A stretch of DNA of 64,000 nt from a virus (IMGVR_UViG_3300037264_002561:1-64000), one strand, 5' to 3'. Shown: positions 49,718 through 59,034, counted from the first letter of the stretch. A program made the numbers and translations. The notes: generated by a model from the letters alone, not told the origin.

Positions 49718-50307
49718 TTCGCGGCCTCAACGGCTCGACGTTCGGCTTCGACGTCCCGATCGATAGCGGCCTTCTGGGTGAAGTTCCCCTCGTAGCGGGT
49801 GTCGAGCTTGGTGTGGTTCAGCTTCCAGATCTCTTCCCAAGTGAACCCCAGTTCGCCCACAATCCGATTGGCCACCGCGAGGGATCGGACGACGGAGTCG
49901 AACATCTCCTTGAGGTTTTTGCTGCTCCCTATGTCCTCGTAGCGGTCCAGCTTCATCAAGCAGAATCCCGAACGGTGGTAGAGCTCGTGAACCATGCCGA
50001 TCGGATTACCCAAGGCTGGATTGATCCCGATCCAGTAGTGAGGGGAGATGTGGTCCTCCAGGAAGCTCTTCTCGTCCGTTCCTTTCATGGTGGCGTACCA
50101 GGCGAAGAACAGGGAGACGAACCAGGCGAAATCGCCAAGCTCCATGAGTAGGTCCGTCCGGTTGATCGCCACGTCGTAGTGGCGCTTCTTGAAGATCCCT
50201 AGGATCTCGGCCGCTTCTTCGGCCAGGCCCTCGATAAAGTGAGCCGGTAAGAATGCCTTGGGGTTGCAGAAGTGACGGACGGATGCCAAGTACTCGACCC
50301 ATTTCAT
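49708..50307 (-). CDS. MazG-like nucleotide pyrophosphohydrolase
   Basis: 199 residues, ATG 50307. E30-E31-x2-E34 (LAEEAAEI) and E56-x2-D59 (MELGDFAWF) match the metal-binding helices of the all-alpha NTP-PPase superfamily. Cyanophage and other phage MazG proteins alter nucleotide or ppGpp pools. Overlaps the start of the preceding gene by 4 bases. Stop inside the palindrome. Confidence 0.72.
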   Translation of the reverse strand: MKWVEYLASVRHFCNPKAFLPAHFIEGLAEEAAEILGIFKKRHYDVAINRTDLLMELGDFAWFVSLFFAWYATMKGTDEKSFLEDHISPHYWIGINPALGNPIGMVHELYHRSGFCLMKLDRYEDIGSSKNLKEMFDSVVRSLAVANRIVGELGFTWEEIWKLNHTKLDTRYEGNFTQKAAIDRDVEAERRAVEAAKAP

Positions 50308-50987
50308 GCGTGCTCCTCTTTGAAGCCGTAGCCCGACAAGTCCCGAACTCCATCCGAGACTTGAACTTGCGTTTCTCCGCGCTGGTTTTGGGTGAGGGTA
50401 TAGAGCCGATCGACTACGGCTTTCAGCTCAGGATCGTGGGTGATGAAAAAGATCTGCATCCCAAGGTCGTGGCTGATCTTGGTGATCCAGGTAGCATAGC
50501 GAGCTCGCCGGGACGGCTGCATGAACTTCCCAGGCTCATCCAAGAAGAGAATGGGACGCCTCTTGGGGACATGGTTGTTCAGGAAGATCACCCGGAGCGC
50601 CGTCGTGATGACGTCCGTGTAACTCCCACCCTTGGCTCGCATGGGAGAGTCCTGAGTAAGGATCCCATCCCGCTCCCAGCGGAGTTGGAAGTCGGCGTCA
50701 AGCGCCCCACGTTTCTCCGAGATCTCGATCAAGAAATCGATCGAGCGGTCCTCGAAGATGGCCCGGAGCGCGTTCGTGGTGTTCTTCTGAACGGTCTTGA
50801 CGGTCTTCTCGCGACTGAACTTGGCACCCTCCAAGAAGAGAGTCTTGGCCTCGTGGTGCCTCTGGATGAGTTTCTCGAGATCGACCAGCCGTTTCGTATA
50901 GCCGGTCAACTTCGTTTCAGCCGCGAGCCGGCGAACCTTCTGGTTCTCGGCGCGGTTACGCAGCTCGGCTAGCAGCTCATCCACCAT
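50304..50987 (-). CDS. SbcC/Rad50-like protein, Walker B half
   Basis: 227 residues, ATG 50987. Short N-terminal coiled coil (~residues 1-65), ABC signature-like AKGGS (118-122), Walker B ILFLDEP (146-152) and H184 of the switch loop (FFITHD). No Walker A. Together with the protein at 57700-59034 (Walker A, long coiled coil) it would make one complete Rad50/SbcC ATPase head. Works with the SbcD-like nuclease at 52642 in end processing and recombination. Confidence 0.75.
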   Translation of the reverse strand: MVDELLAELRNRAENQKVRRLAAETKLTGYTKRLVDLEKLIQRHHEAKTLFLEGAKFSREKTVKTVQKNTTNALRAIFEDRSIDFLIEISEKRGALDADFQLRWERDGILTQDSPMRAKGGSYTDVITTALRVIFLNNHVPKRRPILFLDEPGKFMQPSRRARYATWITKISHDLGMQIFFITHDPELKAVVDRLYTLTQNQRGETQVQVSDGVRDLSGYGFKEEHA

Positions 50988-51495
50988 CGAGGTTCTCTCC
51001 AAAGAAGGTTCGCGCCTCTTCAGCGATGGCAGTGTCCGTCTCCTCCCCCTCGTCGGCCTCTTCCTTCTCGACTGCCACCTTCTGCTGGATGTAGAGATCC
51101 AAGGCTGCCAGATTTCCCCGGAAGGGGACACCGAGGGTCAGCTTGTCGAGAACCGGATCGAGCTCGGGGATACTTGCCGTCAGAGCCTCGATGAACGGGA
51201 GAGACCAGTTCGACCACCCGCGGACAGGGATCCCGTTGGCTCGGAAGCGCTTGACGAGGTGGGCGATTTCGTAGATCCAGGCCACGCCCTTGAAGATCAT
51301 GATGGTCGAGTCGAAGTCCGTGTTGAACTCGTACCAGATGTCCATCCCGTAAGGGGTCGGCCCGGGGGACAACTCGATCAATCCCTGAACGAGATCGACC
51401 AAGGTCTCTCCATGGTGGCCCTTGGCTTCGAGGAAGATCAGAAGCTCGTCGGGCTCAGAACCAGATCGGCTTCGCGGACGAGGGGTGAGGCTCAT
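50977..51495 (-). CDS. Hypothetical protein in the recombination cluster
   Basis: 172 residues, ATG 51495. Mixed alpha/beta (DELLIFLEAKGHHGETLVDLVQ, YEIAHLVKRFRANGIPVRGW); acidic end. No family recognised. Overlaps the Walker B half gene, so it is coupled to it. Confidence 0.55.
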   Translation of the reverse strand: MSLTPRPRSRSGSEPDELLIFLEAKGHHGETLVDLVQGLIELSPGPTPYGMDIWYEFNTDFDSTIMIFKGVAWIYEIAHLVKRFRANGIPVRGWSNWSLPFIEALTASIPELDPVLDKLTLGVPFRGNLAALDLYIQQKVAVEKEEADEGEETDTAIAEEARTFFGENLDGG

Positions 51496-57099: not shown

Positions 57100-57698
57100 A
57101 TGGCCACCACCCTCACGACCGGATCAGGCTTCAGGATCTTGGTGATGAGTTCTCCCAAGAGGCCTCCCTGGCGCTCGTGAGCCGAACTCACGAGGATCGT
57201 GGCTCCGGCGTGCTTCTTGATCCTCGTCATGATGCGCGCCTGCACCTCTGCAAACAGTTTTCCGTCCTGGATGTCCGGGTAGAGATTGAGGATCACGATA
57301 CCCCGGAGTCCTCCCTCAAACTCGGGCTCTTGCTCAGGATCGAGGAGAGTGCTCGCGTCGAGGTAGGAGGGGATCCAGCTCTGTTGGATGGTGATCTGCT
57401 TGGCGAAGGCGAGAGCAGCTACCAAGCTCTGTGACCCAACGATCTTGACCGCTCGGCGCCCCAAGAGAGCTCCCAAGATGCTCTTCTCGACCATCGCTTT
57501 GGAACTCGCTTCGTCAAAACGGAGGCAGGACATCATCTTCTTGGGGGTCTGATGAACGCACACCCCACTGGGATGCAAACGACTTACGGGAGAAGAGAGC
57601 CAGATGAAGTAGCCCTCGACGAGTCGATCGAGCTCTGGAGCTCCTGGAGCGACAACCCCTATCATCAGCTTCTTCCGGATTTCAGCTCTGGTCAGCAT
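57096..57698 (-). CDS. Hypothetical protein, possible helicase-associated factor
   Basis: 200 residues, ATG 57698; overlaps the helicase start by 4 bases. Has VILNLYPD and TILVSSAH like Walker B/sensor strands but no Walker A. Might be a degenerate P-loop loader or UvsY/dda-like accessory. Function not established. Confidence 0.55.
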   Translation of the reverse strand: MLTRAEIRKKLMIGVVAPGAPELDRLVEGYFIWLSSPVSRLHPSGVCVHQTPKKMMSCLRFDEASSKAMVEKSILGALLGRRAVKIVGSQSLVAALAFAKQITIQQSWIPSYLDASTLLDPEQEPEFEGGLRGIVILNLYPDIQDGKLFAEVQARIMTRIKKHAGATILVSSAHERQGGLLGELITKILKPDPVVRVVAI

Positions 57699-57699
57699 G

Positions 57700-59034
57700 T
57701 TAGACCTTGAACTTTGCCTTGCAGGTGTCTTGGAACTCGACCGCGAAGGGGGCGTAGGGACACGTCTTGGTCGTCTTGAGCTTGTCGGCCAAGTTAATCT
57801 TGGCGATCGCTATCGCTTGCTTTCCGGTTGCTACCCGGGCTGCGGCCGTCTCGGCATTCCGTTGGGCCTGTTCCAGTCCACAAAGAAGCCCTTGCTGATC
57901 GCTCGTCCGCATAACAAGGTCTTGTAGTTCCCCGAGAGCCGACAAGGCCCCCGAACAACTCCCGGCTCGGATGCGTGATTGAATGGAGGCCAGGGAGCGT
58001 TCAGCTCGAAGGAAGCGATCTGGCAGATCGAGCTGAATCCTCGAACGGAGAACCTCGAGCTGGGAGTGTTCCTCACGTAGTCGACGAACGTCGGCGAGGC
58101 GGCCCAGCTTTTCACGAAGTCCCTCCAGAGCTCGGAGCCGTTCGGCAACTCCGCGAAGTAGGGAGCGATTGTGGTCGAGACGGACTTGCTTGGCTCGGGC
58201 ATCATCGTAGGCGGCTCGCAACTCTGGCAAGCCATCGAACGCCATCGTTCGAGCATGGAGGTCTCGGACTCGTTCATAGGTTCTTGCGACTCCATCGAGA
58301 AGTCGTCGTGTCTCAAGAACCTGTCCTTCGCCACGTTCTACCTCCTTGGCGATCCCCTCGACCTCTTCCAAGAGGGACGAATAGTTCGTCTCCCCGCGGA
58401 TCAAGTCGAGTTCGCTCTCAGTCTCCCTCTTGAGAGCTTCGAGTGTTTTGGCCTCTCCCTCGAGCCGTTCCTTCGTGATCTTGTGGACTCGGCCCCCTTC
58501 ATCGAAGAGGTGCTGGTCCGTAACCGAGCCAAGGATTTTGACACGAGTGGCCCCTGTGTATCCAGCCCCGATCAAGAAAGGGCCGCGGTCGGGGATCTGT
58601 TCGCTCAGGTTGAGTGAGAACTCCGTCTTGTCCTCGAAGACAATGGGCTGCATCGCGAAGATCGCTTCGACCTGGGGAGGGAGGTTCTGCTTGAGGGAGG
58701 GAAAGGGCGTCGTCTTGCCCCCCCGGGTGACTTCGTAGAACTGGCTCCTCGGTACCAGAACACCCTTTTCATCCTCGGTCCGTTGTCGGGCGATCGTTAC
58801 GACCTCCCCATCGTCCAGCTCGAAGTCCCCCTCAACGCGGCACGGCTCCTTGCTCAAGCGAGCCCAGGTACTCACCGTCATGGGGGTGAAGTAGATCAAA
58901 CTCTCCAAACCCCGCAGAAGAGCTGTCTTACCGACGTCGTTGTCGCCCTGGACGCCTGTGACGCCGTCGTGAAGAAAGATCTCGGTGTCCTTGTGGGACT
59001 GGAAGTTCTTGAACCTAAGCCGGCGGATTCGCAC
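57700..59034 (-). CDS. SbcC/Rad50-like protein, Walker A half
   Basis: 444 residues, GTG 59034 (GGAGGGG upstream); sequence before it in frame is shadow. Starts with IRRLRFKNFQSHKDTEIFL (SMC/RecF-type N-terminus), Walker A GDNDVGKT at 30-37, then long coiled coil. It ends in TCPYAPF...DTCKAKFKV, with Cys near the zinc-hook position, so the chain stops at the hook apex. The Walker B half is the separate gene at 50304. Confidence 0.78.
   Translation of the reverse strand: MRIRRLRFKNFQSHKDTEIFLHDGVTGVQGDNDVGKTALLRGLESLIYFTPMTVSTWARLSKEPCRVEGDFELDDGEVVTIARQRTEDEKGVLVPRSQFYEVTRGGKTTPFPSLKQNLPPQVEAIFAMQPIVFEDKTEFSLNLSEQIPDRGPFLIGAGYTGATRVKILGSVTDQHLFDEGGRVHKITKERLEGEAKTLEALKRETESELDLIRGETNYSSLLEEVEGIAKEVERGEGQVLETRRLLDGVARTYERVRDLHARTMAFDGLPELRAAYDDARAKQVRLDHNRSLLRGVAERLRALEGLREKLGRLADVRRLREEHSQLEVLRSRIQLDLPDRFLRAERSLASIQSRIRAGSCSGALSALGELQDLVMRTSDQQGLLCGLEQAQRNAETAAARVATGKQAIAIAKINLADKLKTTKTCPYAPFAVEFQDTCKAKFKV

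Follow-up and report, generated by a model that had tools for sequence, protein, structure and literature searches.

Two minus-strand genes of a bacterial virus, 6.7 kb apart and thus not one polypeptide, likely encode a single Rad50-type ATPase in two halves, assembled from separate chains. The gene content, motifs, lobe II fold, lineage and association with Mre11 are shown, whereas assembly is inferred and has no experiment behind it. The split form is a widespread Rad50 lineage that stands apart from all single-chain Rad50/SbcC proteins tested, is common to phages and Bacillota chromosomes, and was previously overlooked. The N-half gene described here encodes a homologue of Rad50 whose hook is degenerate, not a canonical Rad50. 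It is regarded as a variant because it fails two canonical features, namely the single chain and the CxxC hook.

The two halves in the viral genome

The stretch of DNA analysed (referred to as the window) is 64,000 nucleotides long and comes from a 64,894-base virus contig in which portal, tape-measure and baseplate genes are present. The two halves and their motifs are as follows.

57700-59034, minus strand: Rad50 N-half, 444 aa, GTG start; lobe I with Walker A, a long helical arm and a degenerate C-terminal hook
58924-58947, minus strand: Walker A GDNDVGKT of the N-half; G30, G35 and K36 invariant in the N-half alignment
57751-57762, minus strand: degenerate zinc-hook motif CPYA of the N-half; relatives have canonical CPxC
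50304-50987, minus strand: Rad50 C-half, 227 aa, ATG start; helix 2-78, then lobe II
50622-50636, minus strand: ABC signature AKGGS of the C-half; G120 and G121 invariant in the C-half alignment
50532-50555, minus strand: Walker B region PILFLDEP of the C-half; D150 and E151 invariant in the C-half alignment
50433-50447, minus strand: H-loop FITHD of the C-half; T183 and H184 invariant in the C-half alignment

Ribosome-binding-like sequences precede both start codons (GGAGGGG before the GTG at 59034 and GGAGAG before the ATG at 50987), the codon-position GC of both halves follows the typical coding pattern, and the catalytic motifs are all intact in both, with Walker A absent from the C-half. 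When the 434 window ORFs were scored with split-family models built without the window's own sequences, the C-half was recovered at E=4e-42 and the N-half at E=1.5e-37, and no second N- or C-half was found below E=0.08. Whole-record searches with AAA_23 and phrog_16465 also returned one N-half only, which matches AAA_23 at 1.5e-7, over the family cut-off, and phrog_16465 at 6.5e-13; the C-half matches phrog_15167 at 1.8e-19.

Identity of the halves

Each half likely corresponds to one lobe of a Rad50-type ATPase whose chain is interrupted at the hook, and their assembly from two chains is inferred. Compared with the PDB, the C-half profile has Rad50 as all 12 of its best matches (5e-14 to 8e-9), including 3qkr_B (E=5e-14), 1ii8_B, 1us8_B and 1f2t_B, and SMC structures appear only from 1e-8 onward. 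The first match of the N-half profile is Rad50 5f3w (E=1.6e-10), and its final 60 positions match the Rad50 zinc-hook structures 6zff (E=5e-4) and 1l8d (E=6e-3). For the window C-half, AlphaFold2 predicts a helix at residues 2-78 followed by lobe II (pLDDT 88.8); the top Foldseek match of this model is the C-terminal chain of Pyrococcus furiosus Mre11-Rad50, with the 1f2t/1f2u chains also among the best matches and one Bacillus subtilis SMC head chain in second place. The AlphaFold model of the N-half is of low confidence (pLDDT 61.5). The globular hinge that SMC proteins carry between two long coiled-coil arms is absent, and the N-half terminates at the motif matching the Rad50 hook.

A different origin for the C-half can be considered, in which it is a RecN-, SMC- or ABC transporter-like ATPase that works without the N-half. 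The C-half does match RecN and ABC transporters weakly in curated models, and the fold search places some SMC chains near the top. Against this stand the order of the PDB profile matches, with 12 Rad50 structures ahead of SMC from 1e-8, the lack of any Walker A in the C-half, an adjacent N-half in 49 of the 52 genomes with a C-half match, and the three genomes in which the C-half is fused with both lobe I and Mre11, which together make this explanation very unlikely.

A first, sequence-only reading had proposed a Rad50/SbcC split into two genes at the hook, and this held, since both minus-strand ORFs are present and their profiles are those of Rad50. Its description of the C-half as starting with coiled coil and carrying AKGGS, ILFLDEP and FITHD also held, a helix indeed preceding lobe II, but its placing of the N-half end near a zinc-hook-like cysteine region held only in part, the hook being degenerate. 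It would have been refuted by a full partner elsewhere for each half or by a C-half from another ATPase family. Neither was the case: the record contains no second partner, and both profile and fold search identify the C-half as Rad50.

The zinc hook

C425 and P426 are invariant in the N-half alignment and position 428 is Cys in at least 90% of sequences. The window keeps C425 and P426 and has Ala at position 428 (CPYA); another Cys lies 13 residues past the first hook Cys. A CxxC sits 3-44 residues before the N-half stop in 80 of 81 paired loci, defined as those with a same-strand N-half among 87 loci with a C-half, and the sole exception is the window. These loci are not all independent, and some are near-duplicates. 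No CxxC is found in the N-half of Microbacterium phage Magritte, which falls outside the 81-locus count because its N-half is too distant from its C-half, and the N-half of Tunturiibacter phage Tunturi_5 terminates in CGKC. IMG/VR scans with the C-half, the N-half and the RecA-like protein gave no close relatives of the window phage, so the CPYA hook cannot be checked in sibling phages. In the relatives, the terminal CxxC would link two N-halves via zinc; in the window phage this link has probably been weakened, changed or lost, although this too is an inference.

The split form in other phages

Both halves are present in Bacillus phage vB_BboS-125 (gp32 and gp35), where a 78-aa coiled-coil protein (gp34) precedes the C-half and Mre11 follows it, and also in Microcystis phage Mvi-JY20, Magritte, Tunturi_5 and the 485-kb uncultured phage LR745208. 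A scan with one C-half query returned 27 IMG/VR loci and four genome loci, and further scans added five viral loci. The stand-alone N- and C-halves correspond to phrog_16465 and phrog_15167 respectively, and all split members tested match these families. An Mre11-like gene was found in every split phage record searched. The split cannot be put down to an assembly error, as it is common to many unrelated genomes.

In several Bacilli phages the N-half and small coil genes are separated by a gene with an AP2 domain (homing-endonuclease-like; for example L002:9104-9676 and L020:9063-9602), and a helicase gene adjoining a stand-alone C-half (L064:610-3225) carries an apparent intein with a homing-endonuclease-like segment.

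The split form in bacterial chromosomes

Of 400 genomes sampled from the class to which Brevibacillus fulvus belongs (one Bacillota class), 52 have a C-half match and 49 have both halves, as one adjacent pair each. Tightly linked chromosomal pairs leave space for one small gene between the halves, and the operon order in Bacillota is recA-(recX)-mre11-rad50N-small coil-rad50C-rny. This operon lies ahead of rny and ymdB in seven of nine chromosomal loci inspected, with recA upstream in six of those seven. In a phylum-wide sample of 399 genomes, 65 have the C-half.

Canonical SbcC (TIGR00618) is present in only 4 of the 49 split genomes, compared with 287 of the 351 genomes without the split form (Fisher p about 1e-24, a value inflated by shared ancestry). 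It is therefore likely that the split complex replaces SbcCD in these Bacillota.

Fusions and phylogeny

In one genome Mre11 is fused in frame to the N-half to give a protein of 937 aa, followed by the coil and the C-half (L109:10008-12821). The arm of this fusion is made of 47-residue repeats and the gene adjoins DNA methyltransferase and secretion-like genes; the locus could be a mobile element. Three Bacillota genomes (L129-L131) encode single proteins of about 690 aa that combine Mre11, lobe I and lobe II and have no arm or hook.

In a tree of the two lobes, all 11 single-chain Rad50/SbcC proteins fall in one clade with a bootstrap of 100, every split form lies outside that clade, and the armless fusions are nested on the split side. 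The tree is unrooted and the direction of change is not proven.

The halves could instead be decaying remnants of a single-chain Rad50 that was broken by insertions and whose pieces no longer cooperate. In favour of this, the window hook lacks its second Cys and about ten ORFs separate the halves. However, the catalytic motifs are intact in both halves, the codon-position GC of both is that of coding sequence, the same split is kept in relatives across several bacterial phyla, and the split set is not nested within the single-chain forms. Decay is accordingly considered very unlikely.

The arm and the small coil protein

The N-half arm is periodic: among 49 non-redundant sequences, 38 have 47 residues as their best shift at p<0.05, and the window arm has the same best shift (p=0.09). 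Spacing between the PFL motif and the first hook Cys changes in steps, being 274 in the window, 318-323 in 55 loci, 367-369 in 20 and 378 in one. Such one-unit steps might reflect a rod that grows by units of fixed size or a series of units, each of them folded back, and the low model confidence decides neither. Because only a 77-residue helix is present in the C-half, a full return arm is missing.

Small coil proteins of about 75-94 aa form a genuine family that spans Bacillota, the phages of Bacillota and huge phages, and the small-coil model scores held-out huge-phage members at 24 and 32 bits, compared with at most 10 for shuffles. In the members from Bacillota and huge phages, a small helical protein is likely part of the complex, which remains an inference. 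Derivation of the small coil from the arm repeats is unsupported, since the small-coil model gives cut arm segments no higher scores than shuffles. Homology of the Mvi-JY20 small coil to this family is likewise not supported.

A bolder reading, towards which the balance of evidence does not quite tip, is that this is a distinct phage/Bacillota Rad50 lineage whose ATPase is obligately made of three chains (N, S and C). In it, the N-half would supply a one-way arm of 47-residue repeats with a terminal zinc hook, the small coil protein S would replace the missing return arm, and some members would have shed their arms and fused the head to Mre11.

Gene neighbourhood, Mre11 and a candidate third subunit

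The genes around and between the halves in the window include the following.

59379-60563, minus strand: RecA/UvsX-like recombinase (phrog_97, 8e-55), just upstream of the N-half
55600-57099, minus strand: DnaB-like replicative helicase (phrog_19, 1.9e-34), between the halves
52642-53523, minus strand: Mre11/SbcD-like nuclease, 293 aa (Metallophos PF00149, 5.1e-6; SbcD-like phrog_100, 2.5e-4)
51492-51740, minus strand: candidate third subunit, a helix-hinge-helix protein of about 82 aa, proposed from position and size, with the Shine-Dalgarno sequence GGGAGGT before the ATG at 51740 and supporting codon-position GC
48544-49689, minus strand: DNA primase (phrog_47, 5.4e-27), downstream in the same gene run

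The genes separating the halves mostly lie nearly end to end, their gaps being -11 to +9 bases apart from two larger overlaps. A single transcript across this gene run is likely because most of the intervening genes are nearly end to end, although it is inferred from that spacing alone.

The Mre11-like gene, which lies between the halves, is the only Metallophos match in the record and its match to SbcD is weak. Together with the position of the halves among replication genes, this weak match could be taken to favour an SMC-like clamp or tether acting in replication or recombination, and not an Mre11-dependent nuclease. Mre11 nevertheless occurs together with the split halves in all phage records searched, in the chromosomal operons and in the fusions, and the clamp is very unlikely.

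The candidate third subunit lies between Mre11 and the C-half, as in LR745208 and Mvi-JY20. Against the small-coil (S) profile it scores only 1.1-1.9 bits, a value equalled by 33 of 300 shuffles; there is no significant match, only position and architecture agree, and its membership of the S family is unproven.

This gene overlaps a 145-aa minus-strand ORF (51562-51999), and codon-position GC indicates a switch of coding frame at about 51750. In the longer ORF the upper part looks coding and the last 60 codons, which overlap the coil gene, do not; overlapping genes or a frameshift are both conceivable. Elsewhere in the window, an 890-aa plus-strand ORF (3314-5986) matches head maturation protease over residues 366-481 and phrog_755 'RNA ligase' over residues 153-259 (E=2.5e-19), and may be an unusual fusion or point to a misnamed phrog family.

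With respect to the sequence-only reading, its Mre11-like nuclease between the halves is confirmed, and its count of nine intervening genes is corrected to ten ORFs if both 51562-51999 and 51492-51740 are counted. It had called a two-chain split unusual; the split recurs widely in phages and Bacillota, with two-chain assembly still inferred. It had also proposed looking for the fusion in relatives, which include the three Mre11-lobe I-lobe II fusions and the one Mre11-N-half fusion. The widespread lineage, the lost second Cys of the window hook and the small third protein in Bacillota and huge phages go beyond it.

Proposed mode of action

It is proposed that lobes I and II would dock non-covalently into one ABC head and that two such heads would sandwich ATP. 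Mre11 would bind the base of the arms, with ATP driving the control of Mre11, and the complex may trim DNA ends for the RecA/UvsX-driven recombination of the phage. All of these steps are inferred.

Models of Mre11-Rad50 assume a continuous arm that runs out to the zinc hook and back, tethering the lobes and allowing hook-head communication. A natural lineage cut at the hook and with a short return helix offers a way to test the contributions of the hook and return arm, and the stepwise arm lengths and armless Mre11-Rad50 fusions are natural experiments on arm length. The split form may also explain why SbcC appears to be absent from part of the Bacillota.

Comparison with known systems

The two phage families are catalogued separately, phrog_16465 as 'exonuclease' (491 aa) and phrog_15167 as 'ATPase' (211 aa), and records of the vB_BboS-125 type label the N- and C-halves in the same way; these two separately named families now become linked. 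Neither a natural Rad50 split nor a paper linking phrog_16465 with phrog_15167 was found in the literature searched, which included few subscription journals.

The P. furiosus Rad50 crystals 1f2t, 1ii8, 1us8 and 3qkr contain the lobes as separate chains A and B, according to the PDB chain lists. A two-piece Rad50 head can therefore form in vitro. These structures resemble the split form in having lobes I and II on separate polypeptides and are among the best matches of the half profiles, but their cut is engineered and drops most of the arms, whereas the phage split is natural and its N-half keeps the arm and hook region.

For end processing, T4 gp46/gp47 and bacterial SbcCD are the closest working analogues. 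The single-chain Rad50/SbcC proteins (T4 gp46/gp47, E. coli SbcCD and archaeal Rad50) share with the split form the ABC head lobes, an Mre11-type partner and a setting in recombination and repair, and share with the relatives of the window a zinc-hook motif at the distal end of the arm. In contrast to them, the split form is cut at the hook, its arm comes mainly from the N-half and is built of 47-residue repeats, its C-half has only the 77-residue helix, and many members have a separate small coil protein.
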